Assembly (NCBI GenBank): GCA_003281605.1
Contig: QCBM01000006.1
Coordinates: 1 to 37,942 of the forward strand
Source: Prochlorococcus sp. AG-347-I06
Lineage (GTDB): Bacteria > Cyanobacteriota > Cyanobacteriia > PCC-6307 > Cyanobiaceae
Direction: 5' to 3'
DNA length: 37,942 nucleotides
Both the position numbers and the translations under genes were made by a program. This document shows, piece by piece, positions 1 to 13,445 of the stretch. The notes under the pieces are model-generated. The model was not told the DNA's origin. It did not search any database and was given only the letters and a program-made list of their open reading frames with translations. Position 1 is the stretch's first letter; each line of letters opens with the position of its first letter.

Positions 1-489
1 ATAATTATTTAAATAAATATATAGTAATGCAAGCATTAAAAAAGATATAGCCAAAGATTGCCTTATTGGTCCCATTCCAATTATTAAGAAATAATATGGA
101 TAAGAAATCATTAGTGACAAATAAGTTCTTTTTAATTTTGAGCAGAAATAAAATAAAGAACCTGTAAAAATTGATGAAATAACGAAAATATTGATATTGA
201 ATTTGAATTTTAATGAGACAATTTTTGTGATGAATATGTATCCAATATTAAAGAAGTTTGATTGGTTGCTTAAGATATCTATAAATGGGATATTCACAAT
301 ATCCTTAAAATTTCTCTCATAAGTATCCCAGTCGCATCCAATTTTATCTCTAAAACCGATAAAAATAAGAAATATAGAAAATATGGATAAGTAGAATATT
401 CTACTTGAAAGTATATTTTGAAATTTTTTATTTATTTCAGAACAAGCTAATAAAACCAGAAAAAATAGGGGAAGCGAATATATAAGCAT
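1..489 (-). CDS. EpsG/Wzy-like polysaccharide polymerase, N-terminal part (runs off left edge)
   Basis: The ATG is at 489 and the frame stays open for 163 codons to base 1, so the C-terminal part lies outside the window. The visible part is strongly hydrophobic: a membrane segment at residues 3-15, another around 29-44, and more after residue 90. Two landmarks fit the EpsG family of multi-pass oligosaccharide polymerases: an early GCDWDTY segment near residue 50, and a later YPYYFLIIGMGPIRQSLAIS segment, matching the family's Gly-Arg-Gln signature. Such proteins join repeat units on the outer face of the inner membrane. The start lies one base after the stop of the upstream glycosyltransferase, so it is the seventh gene of the polysaccharide unit. 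The polymerase role is inferred from family resemblance and context; the exact substrate is unknown. Confidence 0.75.
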   Translation of the reverse strand, partial: MLIYSLPLFFLVLLACSEINKKFQNILSSRIFYLSIFSIFLIFIGFRDKIGCDWDTYERNFKDIVNIPFIDILSNQSNFFNIGYIFITKIVSLKFKFNINIFVISSIFTGSLFYFCSKLKRTYLSLMISYPYYFLIIGMGPIRQSLAISFLMLALLYIYLNNY

Positions 490-490
490 A

Positions 491-1654
491 TTAATTATTT
501 AAAAAGTCGTTATAAATTTTTAATATTTGAGTATTAATTCTAATAGTCGAAAAATTGTTCTCAACTATTTTTCTAGCGTTTAGCCCATAAGTTTCCGATA
601 AATCTTTATTATCTAAAAATATCTTCATAGCTTTTTTTAAACTTTTTTCATCTCTTGGTGGGACCAAAATACCTGAATATTTATCAATAATTACATCTTT
701 GCATCCAGGTACATTAGTTGTAATAATAGGCAATGACATTGCCGAAGCTTCAATGAGCGATTTAGATAATCCCTCTCTCCAAGAAGGTAAAACCACAAAA
801 TCCATTTTCCTATAAATCTTTAACATATTATTTGACTTTCCCAATAAATTGATATTTTTATTAAGCTTGAATTTTTCTAGATTTTTTTTACTTAAAGTAC
901 TTTTATTATGCAAATCTATATCTCCAACAATATTAAGTACAAATTTATATTCTTCCATCCAAAGGGACTCACAAGCAGAAATAAGTTCGATTATTCCCTT
1001 CTCCTTAATTATCCTTGCTGGAAATAAAACTTGAATTTTTCTTTTTGATGGAGTTTTAATTTTTACTTTTGAATCAACTTTAAAGTGATCAATATTAACT
1101 CCTGAACCCTTAATTATTCTTGTATTTTCAAGAATGCATAATTTTTCTTTTATAAAAAAATCCCTATCTTCTTGATTATGAAAAATACTTAATGTAGATT
1201 TACTTGAAAAAGCATATTTATAAATTGGCTTAAAAATTTTATTAATAAATTTAATTTTTTTTCTATTACTTAAAAATGATGGTCCTAACCCAGTTATATG
1301 ATTTATTAAATATTTAGTCCCAGTTAGTCTTCCTACAAAACCTCCATAAAGACAGGGCTTAATAGTAAAGTTGTGAATTAAGATTGGTTTATATTTTAGA
1401 AAAATATATATTAAGTGAATAATAGTAAATAATTCTAAGAAAGGATTTTCTGATCCTCTCACTAGAAATAATCTCTCATTATTGGTAAAGAATTTTGCAA
1501 TTTTTAGCTTATATTTATCTAAAGGAGAAGCAAGTATTAGTTTGTAACCTCTCTTGTTCAGAAGAGCTAATAATTCATATCTAAAATTATATAAATACCA
1601 AGTACAATTTGAGACTATTATTATGGTCTTTTGGTTATTTTTTTTATTTTCCAA
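491..1654 (-). CDS. Glycosyltransferase, family 4 (GT-B fold)
   Basis: A 387-residue enzyme that probably adds one sugar to a lipid-linked oligosaccharide on the cytoplasmic face of the membrane. The N-terminal half (about 8-190) has the GT-B acceptor-domain style with IIIVSNCTWYLYNFR at 11-25 and an HNFTIKP block near 94-100. The C-terminal half has ARIIKEKG (213-220, phosphate-binding Arg and Lys) and the EX7E donor-binding motif at Glu294 and Glu302, followed by PIITTNVPGCKDVI. It resembles the PglA/bacillosaminyl-PP-undecaprenol glycosyltransferase subgroup, but donor and acceptor cannot be read from sequence. The start is TTG, and the first 11 bases overlap the end of the upstream fusion gene, implying translational coupling. 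The closest named family is glycosyltransferase group 1. Confidence 0.88.
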   Translation of the reverse strand: MENKKNNQKTIIIVSNCTWYLYNFRYELLALLNKRGYKLILASPLDKYKLKIAKFFTNNERLFLVRGSENPFLELFTIIHLIYIFLKYKPILIHNFTIKPCLYGGFVGRLTGTKYLINHITGLGPSFLSNRKKIKFINKIFKPIYKYAFSSKSTLSIFHNQEDRDFFIKEKLCILENTRIIKGSGVNIDHFKVDSKVKIKTPSKRKIQVLFPARIIKEKGIIELISACESLWMEEYKFVLNIVGDIDLHNKSTLSKKNLEKFKLNKNINLLGKSNNMLKIYRKMDFVVLPSWREGLSKSLIEASAMSLPIITTNVPGCKDVIIDKYSGILVPPRDEKSLKKAMKIFLDNKDLSETYGLNARKIVENNFSTIRINTQILKIYNDFLNN

Positions 1655-2978
1655 TTTTTATACAATATAAGGATCTAAGTTTATCTACTTTATATAAAAA
1701 TTTTACTAAACCAATGTGATTAAAAAAGAATTCATGATGATTATATTTATATAGCTTATCTTTAACGTAAAAAGCATCTATCAATAATATAAAACTACCA
1801 ATTTTTTTATAATAATTTAAAATCATTTTCTCAATTTCTGACTTACTGTAATCATGAGCAAAACCCAACATAGATATTAATATGAGATCTTTTCTTTTTT
1901 TTACTAATAATGTGTGGTCAAATAGTTCTTCTTCTCTTTCAAAAAATATAAATTTATTTTTGTATAAAATTGAAATTAAGTTTTTTAGTCTTAAATCAGA
2001 ATCATATCCGTACTTATATAAACTATCTATTTTCACTTTTGAGAGAATTTCCCCCAAACCACAACCAATATCAATGTATATATCAGGCTTAAAAGAATTT
2101 ATTATTTCAAGAGAAATCATTTTATATTTTCTACAATAAAAAGTCCCATTTAGATGCCAATCATAAATACTCTTATTTTTGAATAAGATTTTATAAAATG
2201 TTCTTTGTTTTATACAAAGTATATTAATTAATAATTTATTGAAAATTTTAAAAAAATTTCTTAGATATCTAAAAAATTTTATAGAAACGAAAGTTAATTT
2301 TTTATCAATTATTTTTAAATATTTTTTGCTTAGTCTTAATTCATTAATTGAAATAAATCTATTATGGTTTTTATCAATAAAAATAATAAGTCTTTCCAAT
2401 TCTTTATCTGAAATAGTATTAATATGAATACATAGTTGGGAGATGCAAGGAATTATTTTTGGTAAAGGAAATGAAGAAACTTGAGGGATAAAAGTAAGAT
2501 TATCCTCCTTATAAGGAAATAAAGAAAAACCATCTAAAATAAATTTAAAATGTAATTTATCTAAAGCTCTTAAAGTATTTTTATCAAATGAATGGGCTGG
2601 AGCCATAAAAACAGGTTCCCACAAAAATTCTTTACTTAATAAACTTTTACCTTTTGAAATTTTTTTTAATTGTTTATTAAATTCATGACCTGCGAATTCA
2701 GAATTACGAGAATTTGCAAAAATAGCTTTTGAATTAGAATCATATAAATGTGTATATCCATGTTGAGCTATAACATCTCCATAAGATTTGCACTTTCTTA
2801 AGTAATCATAATAATTAGGGAAATTATTAGAAACCATTAAATTATAATCTCTACAATCTGGAACTACTCCAAGAATTGATTTTATTTTGTATTTCTCCAA
2901 AATGTTTTTTATTCTTAAAAATCTTTGCCAGTCCATACGAGGATTGATATCATCAAATCGCATTAAATAATGAGCCAT
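1644..2978 (-). CDS. DUF2334 (polysaccharide deacetylase-like) fused to a SAM methyltransferase-like domain
   Basis: 444 residues from the ATG at 2978; a TTG nine bases upstream is also possible. Residues 1 to about 215 look like DUF2334, a (beta/alpha) deacetylase-fold family: MRFDDINPRMDW at 6-17, GVVPDC near 37, AQHGYTH at 71-77, and a MAPAHSFD block near 125. Residues from about 275 to the end look like a class I methyltransferase: YIDIGCGLGEIL (motif I, 301-312) and an acidic end to the next strand at YGYDSD (323-328). A basic, Phe-rich linker of about 55 residues joins them. It sits between two glycosyltransferases, so a role in trimming and methylating a glycan is an inference. Substrate is unknown, and catalytic competence of either half is untested. 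The next gene overlaps its end by 11 bases. Confidence 0.75.
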   Translation of the reverse strand: MAHYLMRFDDINPRMDWQRFLRIKNILEKYKIKSILGVVPDCRDYNLMVSNNFPNYYDYLRKCKSYGDVIAQHGYTHLYDSNSKAIFANSRNSEFAGHEFNKQLKKISKGKSLLSKEFLWEPVFMAPAHSFDKNTLRALDKLHFKFILDGFSLFPYKEDNLTFIPQVSSFPLPKIIPCISQLCIHINTISDKELERLIIFIDKNHNRFISINELRLSKKYLKIIDKKLTFVSIKFFRYLRNFFKIFNKLLINILCIKQRTFYKILFKNKSIYDWHLNGTFYCRKYKMISLEIINSFKPDIYIDIGCGLGEILSKVKIDSLYKYGYDSDLRLKNLISILYKNKFIFFEREEELFDHTLLVKKRKDLILISMLGFAHDYSKSEIEKMILNYYKKIGSFILLIDAFYVKDKLYKYNHHEFFFNHIGLVKFLYKVDKLRSLYCIKIGK

Positions 2979-3011
2979 GAATTTCAAATAATCAAACTTA
3001 TTTAATTTTTA

Positions 3012-4154
3012 TTATTTAAAACTATTATATAATTTCGTATATTTATAATTCATTATATCTAATGAAAAGTTATCTTTTACTCTTCTTCTGGGTGACGAAG
3101 ACTTTTTGTTTAAAATAAACCTTTTTTCAGAAACTTCTTTTAATTGAAGTGCTAATGATAATGGATCTGAAATATTTATGGTCCAACCTGTTTCTCCTAT
3201 AATTTCCTTGGCATCTCCAACATTAGTACTAATACAAGGAATATCAACAGCCATTGCTTCAATTAAAGTAATTGGGAATGCCTCTTTTCTTGATGATAAA
3301 ACATTAATATCTAAAGCATTTAATATCTTATGTATTTCAAAACTTTTACCATATAGTATTACTTCCTTATTTAGATCTAATTGCATTATCTTTTGAGATA
3401 AAAAATCATTATTATTTGATAATCCAGCTCCAATTAATATACATTTGAAATTTACTTGAAAACTTTTTAATAAAAAAAGAGCTTTTAATAAATTATCATG
3501 ATCTTTAATTGGATGATATCTAGCAATATTTCCAATTAGTAAACAATTATCTTCGATATTTAATTTAGATCTAATTTCTTTTCTAAATTTTTTGTTTGGC
3601 CTAAAAATATCGAGCGCAACTCCATTATTTATTAGGATAGAGGGTGATTTTTTATATCCATTTTTTATATGATTTGTTTTTGACCTTAAAGAACAAAAAA
3701 CAATTTTATTAGGCAAGAAATAACTTAATATTGTTAGTATTTTCATTTCAATTGCAAAAAAAATATTAGGTTCTTCATAATCATGATGAATACTCCAAAT
3801 AATTTTATTAATGCCTAAAATCCTCGCAATAGATCCACCTATTAAATTTGCATGATAAAGCCAAGTATGAACAATTTCTGGTTTAAGTTTTAAAATTAAT
3901 TTAAATAATTTAAAAACTTTAAATATGAAAAAAATATTTTTTTTCATATTTAAAGAGTATATTTTGTAACCTTTCTCAATTAAACAATTTCCATAAAAAC
4001 CAATATCAGTTAATGAAATTAATATAATGTTATCCTTATTAATATTTGTAGCAACATTAAATAAAATTTTTTCAGCGCCTCCAGAATCAAGACCAGGGGC
4101 TATAAATAAAAATTTACATTTTTGTTGAAAACTATTAGTATTAGATTTTTTCAT
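3012..4154 (-). CDS. Glycosyltransferase, family 4 (GT-B fold)
   Basis: A 380-residue cytoplasmic or membrane-associated sugar transferase. The N-terminal APGLDSGGAEKIL segment (19-31) is the typical glycine-rich start of GT4 enzymes. VHTWLYHANLIG (95-106) and the IHHD block (122-125) also fit the family. The C-terminal donor domain shows GNIARYHPIKDHD (208-220) with Arg212 and Lys217, and the EX7E pair Glu291/Glu299 in EAFPITLIEAM, then PCISTNVGDAKEII. The first 14 bases overlap the end of the ABC transporter gene, and the fusion gene follows 33 bases after its stop. The sugar transferred is unknown. Its AT-rich, Lys/Asn/Ile-rich composition matches the rest of the island. Confidence 0.9.
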   Translation of the reverse strand: MKKSNTNSFQQKCKFLFIAPGLDSGGAEKILFNVATNINKDNIILISLTDIGFYGNCLIEKGYKIYSLNMKKNIFFIFKVFKLFKLILKLKPEIVHTWLYHANLIGGSIARILGINKIIWSIHHDYEEPNIFFAIEMKILTILSYFLPNKIVFCSLRSKTNHIKNGYKKSPSILINNGVALDIFRPNKKFRKEIRSKLNIEDNCLLIGNIARYHPIKDHDNLLKALFLLKSFQVNFKCILIGAGLSNNNDFLSQKIMQLDLNKEVILYGKSFEIHKILNALDINVLSSRKEAFPITLIEAMAVDIPCISTNVGDAKEIIGETGWTINISDPLSLALQLKEVSEKRFILNKKSSSPRRRVKDNFSLDIMNYKYTKLYNSFK

Positions 4155-5829
4155 TTATATTTCTTAATTTTTTATCTTCTAAAATAAAAACTTTATCACA
4201 AATTTGAACTACTTCTTTTTTATGAGAAATTATTACAATAATCATTTTCCCTATTAAGGTTTTAATTATATCAATAAATTCTTTTTCAGATTTTTCATCT
4301 AGACCTGTAGATGGTTCATCGAGAATTAGTAATTTTGGATTTGTATATAAAGCTCTAGCTAATGCAAGTTTTTTTCTTTCGCCTCCAGAAAAACGCATTC
4401 CTTGATCATAAATATTTTCGTACAATCTATTAGGCAAATTTTCTACAAACTTCCAAGCATTAGCCTTAATGAGACAATTTTTAACTAAATCTTCATTTAT
4501 AGAATTTTCAGTTAAACAAATATTTGAAATTAATGTATCATTTTTAAAAAAATTATCTTGCATTACAATTCCAAAATTCTCCCTCCATTTATTAATATTT
4601 AAATCATTTAAATTTTTGCCAGAAATATAAATATTACCTTTTTTAGGTCTAATTATTCCTGATAAAAGATCTAATAGCGTACTTTTCCCAGATCCAGATT
4701 TTCCAATAATCCCAACTGACTCGTTTTGATTTATTCTTAAATTAAGATTTTCAAGCAAAGGAACTGAATCGGGATAATTAAAACAAACGGAATCAAAAAT
4801 TATATTTCCCTTAAAATTTAAATCAGATTTATTATTTCTTAAATCCTCTCTATATTTTTTAGCCCAACTAAGTTTTTTTAAATGTAATTTAGGCCATGAA
4901 ATTAAGGCGATAGCATCGAGAAGTCTTGTTTGGGCATTATATACCTTAGGTGCCATCCTTATAAAAAGTGATAATGAAAGTATTAAATTTGAAGCTGCTG
5001 AATTGTATAAAATAATGTATGTAATGGATAAGAATATAAATATTACAGAAAGAATTTCAGTTACTAACTTTGATTTATAGCTTGCTTCCATCGCATTAAA
5101 GTAGGAATTTGAGAATCTCAAAAAAATCTTTTTAGACTCCTTTTTCGCTAATTTATCCTTGCTTATTGTACGTATATATTTTAAATTGTTAAATATAGAG
5201 GAACTCCAATTTCCAATACTGGAAGTTATATCTGAAAGCTTACTCCCATACTTTGCAGATTTATTTGAATAATAAATATATATTCTTAATACTAAAAAAC
5301 CATAAATTATCAAAATTATAAAAGTGTCAGGAACCAAAAACAGGCAAGTAAAAAAGTAAATTAAAGCAATAATAAAATAATTAAGAGATTGTAAAAAATA
5401 CATATATCCTTCTGAAATATTTTGTCCCTCCGAAATAATTGACTTAGATATATCTCCTTGACTTAATTTTAAATAATATTCCCATTTTATATTTATCGTC
5501 ATATCTGTAATCTCATCTCTTACAAATCTTTCGATAAAACATTTTGCTTTTACAATATTTTTATTAGAAAGATAATAGAAAATGGCTGACATTAAAGCTA
5601 CAAATAAAAATAAAGAGAGGTAGACCTCTTGTCTTAAATTAAAATTACTAACGTTTATTATTCCTGATAATATACTTTGATTCTCAATCTTTGTGATTAT
5701 GTTAGCCATAAGATATATAGAAATTGTTTCCAAAATTGCGCCTATAATTCCAAAAATTATGGCTAAATAACTATATTTTCCTGATGCTTTTAAATACCTA
5801 TAGTAGTTTTCCCAAAGTTTTAATATCAT
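4141..5829 (-). CDS. ABC transporter, fused membrane and ATPase domains (oligosaccharide/lipid flippase type)
   Basis: A 562-residue half-transporter of the MsbA/PglK type that should act as a homodimer in the inner membrane. Residues 1 to about 310 form the membrane domain with hydrophobic segments near 20-44, 69-88, 150-188 and 258-290. Residues about 342-562 form the nucleotide-binding domain: Walker A GKSGSGKST (376-384), Q-loop Gln424, signature FSGGE (480-484), Walker B LLILDEP (500-506) and switch His536. The family moves lipid-linked sugars, lipids or peptides. Placement among glycosyltransferases and a polymerase suggests a lipid-linked oligosaccharide flippase, by analogy with Campylobacter PglK; this is inference. 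The downstream glycosyltransferase start overlaps its end, and the dehydrogenase stop lies two bases upstream. Confidence 0.9.
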   Translation of the reverse strand: MILKLWENYYRYLKASGKYSYLAIIFGIIGAILETISIYLMANIITKIENQSILSGIINVSNFNLRQEVYLSLFLFVALMSAIFYYLSNKNIVKAKCFIERFVRDEITDMTINIKWEYYLKLSQGDISKSIISEGQNISEGYMYFLQSLNYFIIALIYFFTCLFLVPDTFIILIIYGFLVLRIYIYYSNKSAKYGSKLSDITSSIGNWSSSIFNNLKYIRTISKDKLAKKESKKIFLRFSNSYFNAMEASYKSKLVTEILSVIFIFLSITYIILYNSAASNLILSLSLFIRMAPKVYNAQTRLLDAIALISWPKLHLKKLSWAKKYREDLRNNKSDLNFKGNIIFDSVCFNYPDSVPLLENLNLRINQNESVGIIGKSGSGKSTLLDLLSGIIRPKKGNIYISGKNLNDLNINKWRENFGIVMQDNFFKNDTLISNICLTENSINEDLVKNCLIKANAWKFVENLPNRLYENIYDQGMRFSGGERKKLALARALYTNPKLLILDEPSTGLDEKSEKEFIDIIKTLIGKMIIVIISHKKEVVQICDKVFILEDKKLRNINEKI

Positions 5830-5831
5830 TC

Positions 5832-7190
5832 TTATAAATGAAAAATATTATCTCCAAAAAATCTATTTACCAAATCAAATATTATTGTTCCAGGAGTACT
5901 GATTTCTGCAAAAACTTTTTCTGATATTGAATAAAAATTTTTATTATTTAAAGCAAATATAATCAATGTATATTTTTTGTTTTCAGGAATTTCATTGTTG
6001 GCTTTAATTCCTATTTCTGAGTACAGTAGATCTTTATTAACATTTGGATCTACTATAGTTATCTCCATATTTTCTTTCTTAAGATTCTCTATTAAAAATA
6101 ACATTTGAGAGTTCCTTAAATCTGAACAGTTTTCCTTATAGGTGACTCCGAAAATTAATACTTTCTCTACTTCATATTCGATTTTTCTTTTACTTATTTG
6201 AGATATAATTTCCAAAAACAAATATTCATGCATAAAATCATTAATCTTTCTTCCTGAAGAAATCAATGAAGCTTTAAAACCAATTTGATTAGCTTTATAA
6301 GTCAAATAATATGGATCAACTCCAATGCAATGACCTCCCACTAATCCAGGACGATATTTATGGAAATTCCATTTTGTGGCAGCTGCATCAAGAACTTCAT
6401 TGGTATCAATACCAAGTTTTTTAAAAAAAATAGCTAATTCATTAACCAGTGCAATATTAATATCTCTTTGTGTATTTTCAATTATTTTAGCTGCCTCTGC
6501 TACTTTTATGCTTTTCACTTTATGAGTCCCAGCTTTTATAAAAGATCCATAAAAATTATCAATCCAAATTGCAACTTCAGGATTTGAGCCACTTGTTACT
6601 TTTACAATATTGTCTATTGTATTATTTTGATCCCCTGGATTAATTCTTTCTGGACTATATCCACAGTAGAAAGTATTTTTTAAAACAGAAGAATTAAATT
6701 TTTTCTTAGAAGTTTTTTCTATTATTGGAATGCAAATTTCTTCAGTAATCCCAGGATAAAAAGTACTTTCAAAAATGATGATTTGATTATCTTTTTTTGT
6801 ATTATCAGAATTTATTATTTTTCCGATTTCAAAAGATGCTTTTTTTATTAGAGAAAGATCAGGTTCCTTTTTTTTATCAATTGGCGTTGGCACGGTAACG
6901 ATAAAAATATCAACATTTTTTAGATCCTCAAGATCATTTGTATATTCTATAAATTTAAGATCAATTAATTCTTTTTTTTTAAAAACAATATTTTTGTCAA
7001 AACCTTCTTTAAGTTCCCTTATTCTTTGCGAATTTAGATCATATCCTATTACTCTTCTATTTAATTTTTTATCACTTCTTAAACAATTTTTATTTTTTGC
7101 TATAGCTAAAGATAAAGGCAATCCTACATATCCCAGTCCTATTACAGCAACAATGCAATTACTAATATTTGGTAAATTATTATTATGCAA
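5832..7190 (-). CDS. UDP-sugar 6-dehydrogenase, TviB/WbpA-like
   Basis: Oxidises C6 of a UDP-hexose or UDP-HexNAc to the uronate with two NAD+ in the cytoplasm. The N-terminal Rossmann segment reads AVIGLGYVGLPLSLA (15-29). PTPIDKKKEPDLSLI (101-115) is typical of the TviB/WbpA branch rather than classical UDP-glucose dehydrogenase. The central helix contains KVAEAAKIIENTQRD (229-243) with the catalytic Lys235 region, and the active-site cysteine is Cys288 in GGHCIGVDPYY. Length (452) is slightly above the usual 420-430, with a 10-residue N-terminal addition. The start is a TTG. It lies 16 bases after the epimerase and two before the ABC transporter. UDP-GlcNAc, UDP-GalNAc or UDP-Glc are all possible substrates. 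Confidence 0.92.
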   Translation of the reverse strand: MHNNNLPNISNCIVAVIGLGYVGLPLSLAIAKNKNCLRSDKKLNRRVIGYDLNSQRIRELKEGFDKNIVFKKKELIDLKFIEYTNDLEDLKNVDIFIVTVPTPIDKKKEPDLSLIKKASFEIGKIINSDNTKKDNQIIIFESTFYPGITEEICIPIIEKTSKKKFNSSVLKNTFYCGYSPERINPGDQNNTIDNIVKVTSGSNPEVAIWIDNFYGSFIKAGTHKVKSIKVAEAAKIIENTQRDINIALVNELAIFFKKLGIDTNEVLDAAATKWNFHKYRPGLVGGHCIGVDPYYLTYKANQIGFKASLISSGRKINDFMHEYLFLEIISQISKRKIEYEVEKVLIFGVTYKENCSDLRNSQMLFLIENLKKENMEITIVDPNVNKDLLYSEIGIKANNEIPENKKYTLIIFALNNKNFYSISEKVFAEISTPGTIIFDLVNRFFGDNIFHL

Positions 7191-7206
7191 TATCTAAAAA
7201 ATAGAA

Positions 7207-8244
7207 TTAATTATAATGATACTCTAAATACCAATTTATAAACTTTTTTATACCATCTTCTATTGAAGTATTCGGTTTAAAGTTAATATATTTTTGAAGC
7301 AAATTAGTATCGGCAAAAGTTGCTTCTACATCACCTGGTTGCATATCATCAAGAATTACTTGAGCTTTTTTACCTAAATTATTTTCAATTGCAATTATAT
7401 AGTCATTTAGTTTAGTAGGTTTTGAGTTGCCTATATTAAAAATTTTATAGGGTGTGAATTTATTACTATTTCTGGGTTTATTTTTACTATTTAAATCTTT
7501 ATCTAAGGAATTTTTCATTAAAAGGGAAAAAATAGATTGAATTACATCATCAATAAACGTAAAATCCCTAAGCATTTTGCCCTGATTAAATACCCTAATT
7601 GGCTCATTATTTAAAATTGCTCTTGTAAATTTAAATAAAGCCATATCAGGCCTACCCCAAGGACCATATACTGTAAAAAACCTTAAACCTGTAGTGGGCA
7701 TATTAAACAGATGGCTATAGGTATGTGCTAGAAGCTCATTTGATTTTTTAGTAGCTGCATATAAGCTTATTGGTTTATCAACATTATCTTTTTCTTCAAA
7801 AGGGAGTTTATTATTGCCACCATAAACTGAACTACTACTTGCATAATAAAAATGTTCAACTTTATTAAGTTTGCTTTGTTCAATAATATTAAAAAAACCA
7901 ACTAAATTGGAATCTATGTATGCAGTTGGATTTTCTAGAGAATATCGGACACCAGCTTGTGCAGCCAAATGAATGACATGAGAAATTTTCGAATTGGTTT
8001 CTCTTGATTTACAAAAAATGCTGCCTATTTTATGGAAGTCAATTAAATCAACCTTATAAAATTCAAAATTAATTTGTTTAAGCTTTGCAATTTTTTGTAA
8101 TTCATTTAACCTGCTTAATTTAAGGTCAACATCATAATAATCATTAACATTATCTAAGCCAATAACCTCAATATCACTAAAAATAAGTTTTTTACAAATA
8201 TGAAATCCAATAAATCCAGCAGCTCCTGTTACTAATATTTTCAT
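7207..8244 (-). CDS. NAD-dependent epimerase, UDP-glucuronate 4-epimerase-like
   Basis: A 345-residue extended short-chain dehydrogenase that inverts C4 of a UDP-uronate. It shows the nucleotide-binding TGAAGFIG (6-13), a VNDYYDVDLKLSRL segment (33-46) characteristic of CapI/LpsL-type UDP-glucuronate epimerases, HLAAQAGVRYS (92-102), a serine-rich ASSSSVYG (135-142), and the catalytic YAATK (Tyr162, Lys166). FFTVYGPWGRPDMALF and the GKMLRDFTFIDDV region fit the same subfamily. It is the first gene of the island unit, starting from an ATG next to the divergent spacer, and is followed after 16 bases by the dehydrogenase. Together they would supply a galacturonate-type precursor, possibly N-acetylated. 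Confidence 0.92.
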   Translation of the reverse strand: MKILVTGAAGFIGFHICKKLIFSDIEVIGLDNVNDYYDVDLKLSRLNELQKIAKLKQINFEFYKVDLIDFHKIGSIFCKSRETNSKISHVIHLAAQAGVRYSLENPTAYIDSNLVGFFNIIEQSKLNKVEHFYYASSSSVYGGNNKLPFEEKDNVDKPISLYAATKKSNELLAHTYSHLFNMPTTGLRFFTVYGPWGRPDMALFKFTRAILNNEPIRVFNQGKMLRDFTFIDDVIQSIFSLLMKNSLDKDLNSKNKPRNSNKFTPYKIFNIGNSKPTKLNDYIIAIENNLGKKAQVILDDMQPGDVEATFADTNLLQKYINFKPNTSIEDGIKKFINWYLEYHYN

Positions 8245-8463: not shown

Positions 8464-9910
8464 TTGAAAAAAAATCCAAAAATAATTCCAATAATTTTAT
8501 GTGGAGGATCAGGTACTAGATTATGGCCAAAATCAAGAACTAGCCTCCCAAAGCAATATTTATCTTTTGATGAGAGTAATCTTTCCTTCCTTCAGTTAAC
8601 TCTAGAAAGAATAAAAGAAATTGATAATATTGATAATCCAATTGTTATTTGTAATGAAGAACATAGATTTATAACTGCTGAACAATTAAGACAAGTAAAT
8701 GTTCAAGCTAAAAGTATTATTTTAGAGCCTGTTAGAAAAAATACTTGTCCTGCTGTAGCTTTAGGAGCTTTAAGAGCATTAGAAATTGATGAAGAATCTA
8801 AACTTCTTATTCTTCCTTCAGATCATTTAATTAAAGACAAAACTGCCTTTATAAAAATAATTAAAGAAGCAGAGATATATGCCGATAAAGAAAATCTAAT
8901 TACCTTTGGGATAATACCAGAAGCTCCTGAAACAGGTTATGGCTATATAAAATCATCATGTCTATTTAATTTAGAAAATTTAAATTGTCTAAAAGTTGAA
9001 AAGTTTGTTGAAAAAACCAAGTAAAAAATTAGCCGAGGAATTTTTAAAAGATAAACGATTTACTTGGAACAGCGGAATGTTTCTTTTTAAAGCAAAAGTT
9101 ATAATTAATGAGATAGAAAAATATTCTCCTGAAATAATTGCATCATGTAGAAAAGCCTTAAAACAGAAAACAAATGACTTATATTTTGAAAAAATTGACA
9201 AAAAAGAATTTAATCTTTGCCCTAATATTTCATTAGATAAAGCTGTAATGGAAAAAACCCAAGCTTGTCTTGTTATGCCTATAAATATTGGATGGAGCGA
9301 TATTGGGGGTTGGAAATCATTTTGGGATAACTCAAAGAAAGATAAGTATGGGAATGTATTACTTGGGGATGTAATTCAAAAGTACGGGCAAAATAATTTA
9401 ATAAATAGTGAACATAGATTAGTTATTGGATTAGGTGTAGAAAATTTAATCATTATTGAGACTAATGATGCTGTTCTTATTGCAAATAGGAATTATTCTG
9501 AAGAGGTTAAAACTATTGTAAATGAATTAAAAAAAAGCTCCCGAATTGAAGTCGATGAACACAGAAAAATCTACAGACCATGGGGAAACTACACATTAAT
9601 AGAGGAAAGTATTTTATGGAAAGTAAAAAAAATTGAAGTAAAGCCATTTTCATCTCTATCGCTTCAAATGCATAATCATAGAGCTGAACATTGGATTATA
9701 GTTGAAGGTACTGCAACAGTTGAAATCGGAAATAATATTTTAGAACTTAAAAAGAATGAAAGTTGTCATGTTCCAATTAAAACGAAGCATCGATTATCCA
9801 ATAAAAAGCAAACAACTCTGATACTTATAGAAGTTCAAAGTGGAAGTTATTTAGGAGAAGATGATATTTTAAGATTTGAAGATGATTACGGAAGAGAAAA
9901 AAATAAATAA
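8464..9910 (+). pseudogene. manC: Mannose-1-phosphate guanylyltransferase / mannose-6-phosphate isomerase, reading frame broken by one base
   Basis: Makes GDP-mannose from mannose-1-phosphate and GTP; the C-terminal cupin interconverts fructose-6-P and mannose-6-P. Frame 1 (8464-9024, TTG start directly after a stop) carries the nucleotidyltransferase signature GGSGTRLWPKSRTSLPKQ and PSDHLI. It reads VEKFVEK, then stops at 9022-9024. The other frame supplies the expected continuation (PSKKLAEEFL, WNSGMFLF, MNIGWSDIGGW-type block) and the type II isomerase cupin (RPWGNYTLIEE, QMHNHRAEHWIIVEGTA, GEDDILRFEDDYGR). The span is 1447 bases, one more than 482 codons. Removing one A from the A6 run at 9011-9016 restores a full-length 481-residue protein. 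Both halves look conserved, so a sequence error or very recent mutation is more likely than old decay. It probably feeds the neighbouring glycan island. Confidence 0.85.
9011..9016 (+). other. A6 run at the manC frame change
   Basis: The coding strand reads GTTG, six A, then CC. Five A would give Glu-Lys-Pro-Ser-Lys-Lys and continue the conserved protein; six A gives Glu-Lys-Thr-Lys-stop. A +1 shift is required. Confidence 0.85.
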
Positions 9911-11530: not shown

Positions 11531-11988
11531 TTAACTCTATATGGAAACCTAAATTGTACTATGCAGGCATTTTACTTTCTGCTAGAAGAGTTTTGAGATC
11601 CTCCCCTTCAATAACTTCCTCTTTTAGAATTTTTTGGGAAATCGATTCAAGGAGAGGTAAATTATTCCTCAATATATTAAGTGCAGTTTCATGCGCATCA
11701 TCTACTAAATCTCTAACTTCTTTATCTATAGCTTGGGCTGTAGCATCACTAACGGATCTTCTAGGATTATTTCCATTACCTAAAAACTGACCTCCACCTT
11801 GTTTGTCATAAGCAAGAGGGCCAAGAATATCACTCATCCCGAAAGTACCCACCATTTGTTCTGCTATATCGGTTGCTCTTTGCAAATCATTTGAGGCTCC
11901 AGTAGTAATCTTTCCAAAAACTACCTCTTCTGCAGATCTTCCACCAAGAAGTGTAGCAATTTGTCCCTTTAATTCCTCTTTAGAATTC

Positions 11989-11994
11989 AAAAAA
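11989..11994 (-). other. T6 run (coding strand) at the second ftsH frame change
   Basis: On the coding strand the text is AGA, six T, GAATTC. With six T the frame reads Arg-Phe-Phe-Glu-Phe-stop. With five it reads Arg-Phe-Leu-Asn-Ser-Lys-Glu and joins the conserved tail containing GGRSAEEVVFG. Confidence 0.85.
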
Positions 11995-12374
11995 TCTTTC
12001 TTCAGTAGGCAATTGAAGCGTATAGCCAAGTGCACTCATACCTCTTGGCACAATTGAAATTTTTGCAACTTTTGAACCTCCAGGCATAAGATGCCCTACT
12101 ATTGCATGACCCACTTCGTGATAGGCAACAACTTTCTTTTCATCATCTTGCAAAACACGACTCTTCTTTTCCAAACCGGCGACAACTCTCTCAATAGCTT
12201 CACTTAAATCTTGTTGTTCTACACTTTTCCTTTTTGCTCTTGCTGCGAGTAAAGCAGCTTCATTTACCATGTTAGCCAAATCAGCCCCTGCGAATCCACT
12301 AGTAGCTTGAGCAATTGAATCTAAGTCAATTGAATCTGCAAGTTTAACTTTTTTCGTATAGATCTCTAATATAG

Positions 12375-12380
12375 TTTTTT
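12375..12380 (-). other. A6 run (coding strand) at the first ftsH frame change
   Basis: On the coding strand the text is GGTAG, six A, CTATA. With six A the frame leaves the conserved protein at SGRKNYIRD and soon stops. With five it continues [18 protein letters not shown], the expected FtsH sequence. Confidence 0.85.
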
Positions 12381-13445
12381 CTACCAGATAAATCTGGTCT
12401 ATCAACTAAAACCTGTCTGTCAAATCTACCGGGTCTTAAAAGTGCTGCGTCAAGCACTTCGGGCTGGTTAGTAGCAGCAAGAACTATAACTGGCTTATCA
12501 GCGGAGGCAAATCCATCCATTTCAGTAAGAAGCTGATTTAAAGTCTGTTCTCTTTCATCATTACCACCAACTACACCCATTGATCCTGAACGACTTTTAC
12601 CAATAGCATCTAATTCATCAATAAAAATGATGCAAGGAGCTTTCTTCTTTGCTTGTTCAAATAAATCCCTGACTCTTGCTGCACCTGCACCAACAAAAAG
12701 TTCAACAAATTCAGATCCTGAGATAATAAAGAAAGGAACTTCTGCTTCTCCAGCGACCGCTTTGGAGAGAAGAGTCTTTCCTGTTCCTGGAGGACCAACT
12801 AAAAGAACACCTTTAGGTATTCTTGCACCTATATCTGTGTATCTTTCTGGTTTCTTTAAAAAATCAACTATTTCTGTGAGTTCGTCCTTAGCTTCATCGA
12901 CCCCTGCAACATCTGCAAATGTTACTTTAGATTCATCATCAGGTACATAAACTTTAGCTTTACTTTTAGTAAAACTTAGAGCTCCTTGAGCTCCTCCTCC
13001 TCCCATACTTCTTCTAGCAAAAAATTGTAAAACAAGAATAAAAATTAAAGGAGGAACAACCCAACTCAAAATGGTTGAGAAGAAATTAGGTTTCTTTGGG
13101 GGAGCAGCAGCAAATTCCACCCCTTTACTTTCTAGCCTTTGTGGGAGGTCCATATCAAAAATCGGAGTAGTCGCTAATACTGAAGGGGCCCCTTCTTCAG
13201 CTCCATTTAACTCATATCTAATCTGTTCCTGAGTGATATATGCACGCTTTACTTCACCATCATTAACCTGATCAATAAATAAAGAATAAGGAACCCTAGG
13301 GATTTGCATATTTTGGTTTGGGAAAAGGCTACTAAATAAAAGTAATGCTCCAACTCCTATCAAAATAATATTTACAATTCCAAATCTTCTATTAGGTTGA
13401 TTATCGTCTTGTCTTATTGGCATAGTTATGATCAATTTTGAACTT

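Follow-up and report, generated by a model that had tools for sequence, protein, structure and literature searches.

The heparan sulfate N-deacetylase/N-sulfotransferase NDST1 is a single protein that deacetylates an amino sugar and sulfates the freed amine. ArnD, which acts on lipid-linked 4-deoxy-4-formamido-L-arabinose (Ara4FN), removes a formyl group. Its place in 4-amino-4-deoxy-L-arabinose (Ara4N) biosynthesis is described in excerpts of the PubMed Central (PMC) article PMC10967932. GpgD of Pseudomonas aeruginosa, encoded together with a glycosyltransferase of family 4 (GT4), deacetylates the lipid-linked N-acetylglucosamine (GlcNAc) of GlcNAc-PG (excerpts of PMC12713373), and HexD, annotated as a polysaccharide deacetylase, deacetylates a glycolipid, which the authors' model places in the outer leaflet (excerpts of PMC10128005). 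NodB and NodS of rhizobial Nod factor synthesis, a NodB-fold deacetylase and a class I methyltransferase, act in sequence on an amino sugar, and N-methylation of Nod factors was observed solely after deacetylation (PMC5080398). Here we describe a gene of Prochlorococcus sp. AG-347-I06 that encodes a DUF2334 deacetylase and a class I methyltransferase in one protein of 444 residues. It lies on contig QCBM01000006.1 (assembly GCA_003281605.1), whose 37,942 nucleotides are called the window below; the window is one entire contig of a 1.52-Mb genome.

The fusion resembles NodB and NodS in combining the same two kinds of enzyme, and the likeness extends to the structure of the methyltransferase half (see below). 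Unlike NodB and NodS, its deacetylase belongs to DUF2334, with Polysacc_deac_1 (PF01522) remaining below cut-off, the two activities lie in one polypeptide or in an adjoining gene pair, the methyltransferase does not match the NodS family, and the genes around it point to a surface-glycan setting rather than to chito-oligosaccharide signals. GpgD appears to be a distant homologue of the deacetylase half through the NCBIfam model that we equate with it by name, but it belongs to the three-gene gpgSDF operon, which contains no methyltransferase, and its substrate is a phospholipid. ArnD is the best Foldseek match of the complete model in the PDB, but its solved chain of 270 residues lacks a methyltransferase. 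The NDST1 chain matches residues 1-238 of the model; the likeness is one of fold only, and the animal enzyme carries a sulfotransferase where the fusion has a S-adenosylmethionine (SAM) methyltransferase fold.

A deacetylase and a methyltransferase in one frame

The gene lies in an open frame at 1644..2987 (-), 447 codons when counted from a TTG. This TTG is a possible alternative start three codons upstream of the ATG at 2978, which gives the 444-residue protein and aligns with the start methionine of relatives. A second fusion was found in Prochlorococcus AG-673-L20 (G589), with 51% identity to the window protein and a linker that aligns without gaps; identical residues amount to 131/214 in the deacetylase, 17/59 in the linker and 80/170 in the methyltransferase. 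Both genomes have the same gene order of ABC transporter, GT4 glycosyltransferase, fusion, GT4 glycosyltransferase and EpsG-family protein. The first-pass annotation of this DNA had read the two domains as one protein, and both the single open frame and its recurrence in AG-673-L20 bear this out.

The same annotation had warned of frame errors in the linker and had taken relatives with two separate genes as a sign of a sequencing fusion. Such relatives do exist, since in AG-919-J11 (G630) the halves are two genes, in the order of the fusion and overlapping by ATGA. A frame error was also a reasonable suspicion because two other genes on the contig, one ManC-like and one FtsH-like, are broken. 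But an error that merged two overlapping genes would have had to occur identically in two separate genomes, given the gap-free linker of the AG-673-L20 fusion, and homology reaches to the C-terminus of the protein. We therefore rejected the frame-error artefact for this gene; judged from these sequences, a sequencing accident is very unlikely as the source of the fusion. The two-gene arrangement of AG-919-J11 together with a second true fusion instead argues for a gene pair that fused. Concerning the broken genes themselves, the mannose-1-phosphate guanylyltransferase (ManC)-like gene at 8464-9910 (+) is read in two overlapping frames (8464-9024 and 8996-9910), and its relative in AG-673-L20 (L028 917-2359) is intact. 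The FtsH-like gene (recognised by eye, 11559-13435, -) is broken over three overlapping frames; a split in this usually essential gene suggests sequence errors in the assembly.

Within the genus, the fusion is carried by two of 266 genomes and a DUF2334 domain by eight. The contig of a further genome (G070) starts inside the methyltransferase end, which cuts off any view of a fusion; the same GT4 gene comes next (52% identical), followed by a broken polymerase-like frame (by eye). AG-347-M18 (G605) has both genes on different contigs. The methyltransferase of AG-919-J11 does not group with the fused ones on a tree that long branches make unsure, and we therefore refrain from naming that pair as the source of the fusion. 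Stand-alone DUF2334 genes were also seen in other company. In G086 (L033 8143-9850), one directly follows a different methyltransferase of the Methyltransf_11 type, perhaps an independent pairing of the two activities, and those of G021 (L034 8675-9427) and G605 (L030 3-1004) adjoin FemAB-like genes, recognised by a Pfam match just under cut-off and by eye, respectively.

The deacetylase half was assigned to DUF2334 (PF10096) by the first-pass annotation, in agreement with the Pfam score of 137.2 bits (E-value 7.4e-40; curated cut-off 26). Residues invariant across nine aligned deacetylases include R7, D9, D10, H73, H77, E94, P127, H129, D149 and H185. They fit motifs 1, 2, 4 and 5 of NodB enzymes as defined in excerpts of PMC10967932, so that the metal-binding residues expected around FDD and HGYTH are intact (D9-D10, H73-x3-H77, D149 and H185). 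For motif 3, an arginine and a proline, P127 is invariant, and the sole invariant arginine is R7, beside motif 1. Polysacc_deac_1 reached 14.5 bits (16.1 for the half alone; cut-off 23.1), and the NCBIfam GlcNAc-PG deacetylase model NF053788 gave an E-value of 8.8e-7 and 28.6 bits (30.5 for the half alone), far under its cut-off of 280. Two EF-hand matches (E-values 0.055 and 0.89) were regarded as chance. A structure of the whole protein, predicted from a 27-row alignment, had a predicted local distance difference test score (pLDDT) of 89.0 and a predicted template modelling score (pTM) of 0.65, with two confident domains whose relative placement is uncertain. In a Foldseek search of the PDB with this model, ArnD (E-value 3.1e-6), PgdA and carbohydrate esterase family 4 (CE4) enzymes led the list. 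VIA-align superposed 196 residues on ArnD (Z 16.2, root-mean-square deviation (rmsd) 2.7) at 12-13% identity; the best NodB-fold match had a Z of 17.0 (189 aligned, rmsd 2.6), and the N-deacetylase part of NDST1 reached 13.4 (201 aligned, rmsd 3.7). From the model, we are confident in predicting a NodB-like fold close to ArnD. In the open-licence PMC literature, DUF2334 was found named by one paper, in a table and without a function.

The first-pass annotation had called the second half a methyltransferase, and the predicted structure supports this call: modelled from a 22-row family alignment (A6; the window and 21 relatives), the half has a SAM-type class I fold with the DIGCGLGE motif, at a mean pLDDT of 92.7 and a pTM of 0.89. 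Invariant in all 22 rows are Y285, I304, G305, C306, G307, E310, D326, D401 and R435, and nearly so W274, H275 and H375; D326 is the acidic residue with which strand 2 ends in class I SAM methyltransferases, and the glycine-rich GCGLG stretch of motif I is likewise invariant or nearly so. Sequence libraries provided only assorted methyltransferase models. The window half matched Methyltransf_23 weakly (12.9 bits, E-value 0.094; cut-off 27), and its row had no Pfam match at E ≤ 0.01. At that threshold 19 of the 22 rows matched Methyltransf_25, and the L035 relative exceeded a Pfam methyltransferase cut-off (30.6 vs 27). Eleven rows each matched phrog_4752, labelled 'tRNA methyltransferase' (best E-value 5.7e-7), and MTase_DVU1556 (best E-value 4.4e-6). 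Foldseek matches listed in the PDB include Hen1, TrmR, TehB and NodS, and the NodS chains have the top template modelling scores (0.60 and 0.62) among the best 50 rows. The corresponding VIA-align Z-scores were 15.3 for SgvM, 14.7 for Hen1 and 13.6 for NodS (160 aligned, rmsd 3.2). The predicted structure thus fits a NodS-like enzyme without proving it. Profile matches in the PDB were led by BamL (E-value 1.2e-6), which methylates an amine.

The linker had been described as basic and without a clear fold. The model instead predicts one helix for residues 219-265, with a pLDDT of about 69-92 in blocks of ten residues. Its net charge is +13 over 57 residues in the window and +12 over 60 in AG-673-L20. 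By position, the linker corresponds to two tails in succession, the C-terminal one of the separate deacetylases and the N-terminal one of the separate methyltransferases. The last 40 residues of the former carry a net charge of +4 or more in nine of ten proteins (L056, +1), and the N-terminus of the latter up to the WH signature does so in ten of eleven (L043, -1). Because these separate tails are mostly basic, the linker may represent two membrane-binding tails joined end to end.

A recurrent gene pair outside Prochlorococcus

We scanned 84,980 genomes of the genome_contigs collection with the alignment of the methyltransferase half alone. The scan depended on one nine-residue pattern, which misses divergent relatives such as that of G960, so the counts are those of a sample. 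It returned 24 loci: three from Prochlorococcus, the weak L058 (26.7 bits, dropped) and 20 others. Matches of about 16 to 27 bits (L017, L058, L060, L061, the second frames of L054 and L055, and the weak rows of the search within the genus) were dropped from every count as ordinary methyltransferases. Flanking sequence was fetched for up to 6 kb, less at contig ends, and contained a DUF2334 gene for six of the 20 relatives outside Prochlorococcus, or for four of seven outside the Lachnospiraceae. The two genes abut in a gammaproteobacterial metagenome-assembled genome (MAG; L037), overlap by 1 nt in an Omnitrophota genome (L038), are separated by one gene in a Patescibacteria MAG (L039) and by a 48-bp gap in Sphingomonas sp. 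Y57 (L040), and have two genes between them in both Lachnospiraceae pairs (L047 and L056). A follow-up, made with nothing but the methyltransferase model, covered the family of Sphingomonas sp. Y57 (149 genomes), the phylum of L038 (193) and the class of L039 (188). Besides the known seeds it gave three matches, in G776 (138 bits), G960 (151 bits) and G1177 (61 to 66 bits). The first two have an adjoining DUF2334 gene, with an overlap of 1 nt when translation is taken to begin at the ATG (L082, G776) and of 4 nt according to open reading frame coordinates (L089, G960); the weak match in G1177 has none alongside. The methyltransferase precedes the deacetylase, the reverse of the fusion, in every one of the eight non-Prochlorococcus pairs (L037-L040, L047, L056, L082 and L089). 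The fusion thus joins a recurrent gene pair, and the two proteins of this pair probably work together on cell-surface sugars. The 19 DUF2334 matches listed in about 76 Mb of 19 genomes give a random chance of roughly 1/300 for lying within 6 kb, a figure that ignores the clustering of glycan genes. Genome-wide, 14 of the 19 methyltransferase carriers searched (L053 excluded) have DUF2334 above cut-off, compared with 4/14 control genomes (7/14 at E ≤ 0.001).

The neighbourhoods of some relatives showed further features. In the Patescibacteria MAG, an FkbM-type methyltransferase gene is located between the two partners (L039 944-3294). In two alphaproteobacterial genomes without DUF2334, the methyltransferase lies beside a CBS/histidine kinase gene (L043 4539-6479, identified by Pfam; L046 5872-7830, by eye). 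A Lachnospiraceae genome carries a 62-residue remnant of the methyltransferase C-terminus (L078 5071-5259) about 1 kb before a DUF2334 gene, which suggests loss of the partner. Closely similar orphan copies of the methyltransferase occur in Lachnospiraceae (L035 5854-6492 and L051-L055), and one of these copies, at a distance of about 3 kb from what looks by eye like a recombinase gene, belongs to an IMG/VR viral contig. Mobile elements may therefore carry the family.

Among 386 genomes of the phylum, that of the window was alone in matching the full protein (E ≤ 1e-4), and it was again alone among 292 searched with the methyltransferase model. Single-sequence patterns of the full protein found no relatives outside the genus in genome_contigs, a tblastn search of plasmids and phages with the full protein gave no match, nor did the L038 and L040 methyltransferases against plasmids, and viral_contigs yielded none when searched with alignments of the fusion (A3) or of the deacetylase (A1). 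With methyltransferase alignments, viral_contigs returned L035 and two generic matches (L060 and L061, 16 bits). The open-licence PMC literature contained nothing relevant on such a fusion or on a deacetylase with N-methylated amino sugars, an absence that carries little weight. As far as these searches reach, the fusion and the recurring pair are apparently undescribed, each half having a known fold and DUF2334 being a named family already.

The surrounding glycan locus

Positions of the fusion gene, its functional sites and the neighbouring genes are given in Table 1. The neighbours match Pfam families of sugar-nucleotide enzymes, an ABC transporter, two GT4 glycosyltransferases and an EpsG-family protein, so the glycan locus proposed earlier is upheld. 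The ABC transporter is possibly a flippase for a lipid-linked glycan and the EpsG-family protein a putative Wzy-like polymerase; together these genes could form parts of a lipid-linked repeat-unit pathway. The glycan segment (1-8244) has a G+C content of 24.6%, compared with 32.7% in the remainder of the contig, as might be expected for a variable genomic island.

Table 1. Genes and protein features at the fusion locus (window coordinates; aa, amino acids)
Feature	Position	Strand	Remarks
EpsG-family membrane protein, truncated by contig end	1..489	(-)	Pfam EpsG, E-value 5e-19
GT4 glycosyltransferase, 387 aa, immediately downstream of fusion	491..1654	(-)	Pfam; relatives in L028 (55% identity) and L032 (52%)
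Fusion gene, 444 aa: DUF2334 deacetylase, linker helix, class I methyltransferase	1644..2978	(-)	
Methyltransferase domain, from W274-H275 signature to C-terminus	1647..2159	(-)	
SAM-binding motif I, DIGCGLGE	2049..2072	(-)	Residues 303-310; I, G, C, G and E invariant in 22/22 rows
Linker, predicted single helix, basic and amphipathic	2184..2324	(-)	Residues 219-265
DUF2334 (PF10096) domain, NodB/CE4-like fold	2385..2969	(-)	Residues about 4-198
D149 to H185, likely Asp-His relay of motifs 4 and 5	2424..2534	(-)	Our own assignment; both invariant in 9/9
H73-GYT-H77, metal-binding His pair (NodB motif 2)	2748..2762	(-)	Both His invariant in 9/9
R7-F-D9-D10, NodB motif 1 with its tandem Asp pair (catalysis, metal)	2949..2960	(-)	R, D and D invariant in 9/9 aligned deacetylases
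GT4 glycosyltransferase, 380 aa, immediately upstream of fusion	3012..4154	(-)	Pfam; relatives near the pair in L028 (AG-673-L20), L029 (AG-919-J11) and L038 (Omnitrophota)
ABC transporter, membrane and ATPase regions	4141..5829	(-)	ABC_tran above cut-off, ABC_membrane below
UDP-glucose/GDP-mannose dehydrogenase family, sugar-nucleotide gene	5832-7190	(-)	Pfam
GDP-mannose dehydratase/epimerase family, sugar-nucleotide gene	7207-8244	(-)	Pfam

Proposed function and alternatives

We propose that the N-terminal half acts as a metal-dependent deacylase of NodB fold. It would take an acyl group, most likely N-acetyl, off an amino sugar that is attached to a membrane lipid on the cytoplasmic side. 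Through its basic amphipathic helix, the linker would keep the protein at the membrane. The C-terminal half would then methylate the same sugar from SAM, with the freed amine as the most likely target, and the product would pass into a surface polysaccharide by way of the neighbouring glycosyltransferases, the ABC transporter and the EpsG-type polymerase. By eye, we saw neither a signal peptide nor a membrane span in the protein; it should therefore lie on the cytoplasmic side, which is where the cell assembles lipid-linked intermediates. Analogy does not settle the side of the membrane, because HexD is placed on the outer leaflet. The fusion, the folds, the conserved active-site and SAM residues, the recurrent pairing and the glycan context come directly from computation; the lipid carrier, the N-acetyl group, action on one sugar, N- over O-methylation and membrane attachment are proposals built on them. 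The parts differ in strength: SAM-dependent methylation is almost certain, deacylation by the N-terminal half is likely, and action of both halves on the same sugar is fairly probable, while our confidence in the freed amine as the target stays slightly below even. This last point draws on the coupling with a deacetylase, given which the methyltransferase would most simply methylate the amine uncovered, and also on the NodS and BamL matches, the order of steps in Nod factors and the fold match to NDST1. As a whole, we consider the chances evenly balanced that the protein is a bifunctional glycan-modifying enzyme which de-N-acetylates a lipid-linked amino sugar and then methylates it, most likely on the amine. 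The coupled change to one sugar that the first-pass annotation had suggested gains in plausibility from the recurrence of the pair; the first-pass interpretation as a whole is supported in part.

A number of observations weigh against this proposal. Eleven of the 13 Lachnospiraceae relatives (L045, L047-L057 and L059) have no DUF2334 gene in the fetched flank, and none of seven DUF2334 neighbourhoods from Lachnospiraceae carriers contains a whole methyltransferase gene of the fusion's family. Genome-wide, DUF2334 is only moderately commoner in carriers than in the controls, and five of the 19 carriers searched (L041, L043, L045, L046 and L059) have no DUF2334 gene at all. Within the genus, four of the eight genomes with DUF2334 (G021, G086, G168 and G073) gave no match to the methyltransferase family. 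The paired methyltransferases are scattered on their tree, requiring five changes, a number as low in 37 of 500 shuffles. Because of this scatter, the pairing is either ancient and often lost or was made more than once; the five changes lend no support to a single origin. Pfam includes a NodS model, and none of the 22 methyltransferase rows matched the NodS family at E ≤ 0.01. The structural matches, among them C- and O-methyltransferases, Hen1 and NodS, cluster at Z 13 to 15.3, and because they lie so close together the fold cannot separate N- from O-methylation.

One alternative is O-methylation, in which the deacylase would free an amine and the methyltransferase would target a hydroxyl, either on the same sugar or on one next to it, so that the fusion would couple two decorations of one repeat unit. 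Sugar O-methyltransferases are common in glycan loci, O-methyltransferases such as COMT (Z 13.3) are found among the fold matches, and the FkbM-type gene between the partners in the Patescibacteria MAG points the same way. By itself, O-methylation leaves the repeated choice of a deacetylase as partner unexplained, and we regard it as unlikely, though as the most serious of the alternatives. It is improbable that the halves act on different molecules and were joined for co-expression or membrane targeting only. Relatives of the methyltransferase do occur in the five carrier genomes without DUF2334, and that of L043 lies beside a non-glycan gene, the histidine kinase; but the two genes are paired, directly or at a short distance, in five phyla and in either order, and the length of the fused linker is conserved. 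Still somewhat less probable is capping of the chain end as by WbdD, with both enzymes acting at the terminal sugar. WbdD does appear, at rank 33, among the Foldseek matches of the methyltransferase half. Capping of this type belongs to ABC-exported O-antigens that are made without a Wzy polymerase, but the present locus has an EpsG-family protein, and a kinase domain was not found in the nine proteins scanned (six of them from the window).

Returning to deacetylation followed by methylation of the freed amine, a broader and more tentative reading, to which we give clearly less than an even chance, is that DUF2334 deacetylases and a methyltransferase family of their own, with the signature WH...IGCGLGE, form a recurrent, undescribed two-enzyme module whose products would be lipid-linked surface glycans bearing N-methylated amino sugars. 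Such a module would be to bacterial surface glycans what NodB/NodS and NDST are to their own substrates, and in Prochlorococcus it would have become a single bifunctional enzyme. When the function of an enzyme is unknown, a fusion or a closely linked gene pair shows which partner it has. For DUF2334 proteins and for this methyltransferase family, the pairing offers a chemistry that can be tested, deacetylation and then methylation of one and the same sugar. If this holds true, N-methylated amino sugars would alter the surface charge of Prochlorococcus and perhaps its properties as a phage receptor.

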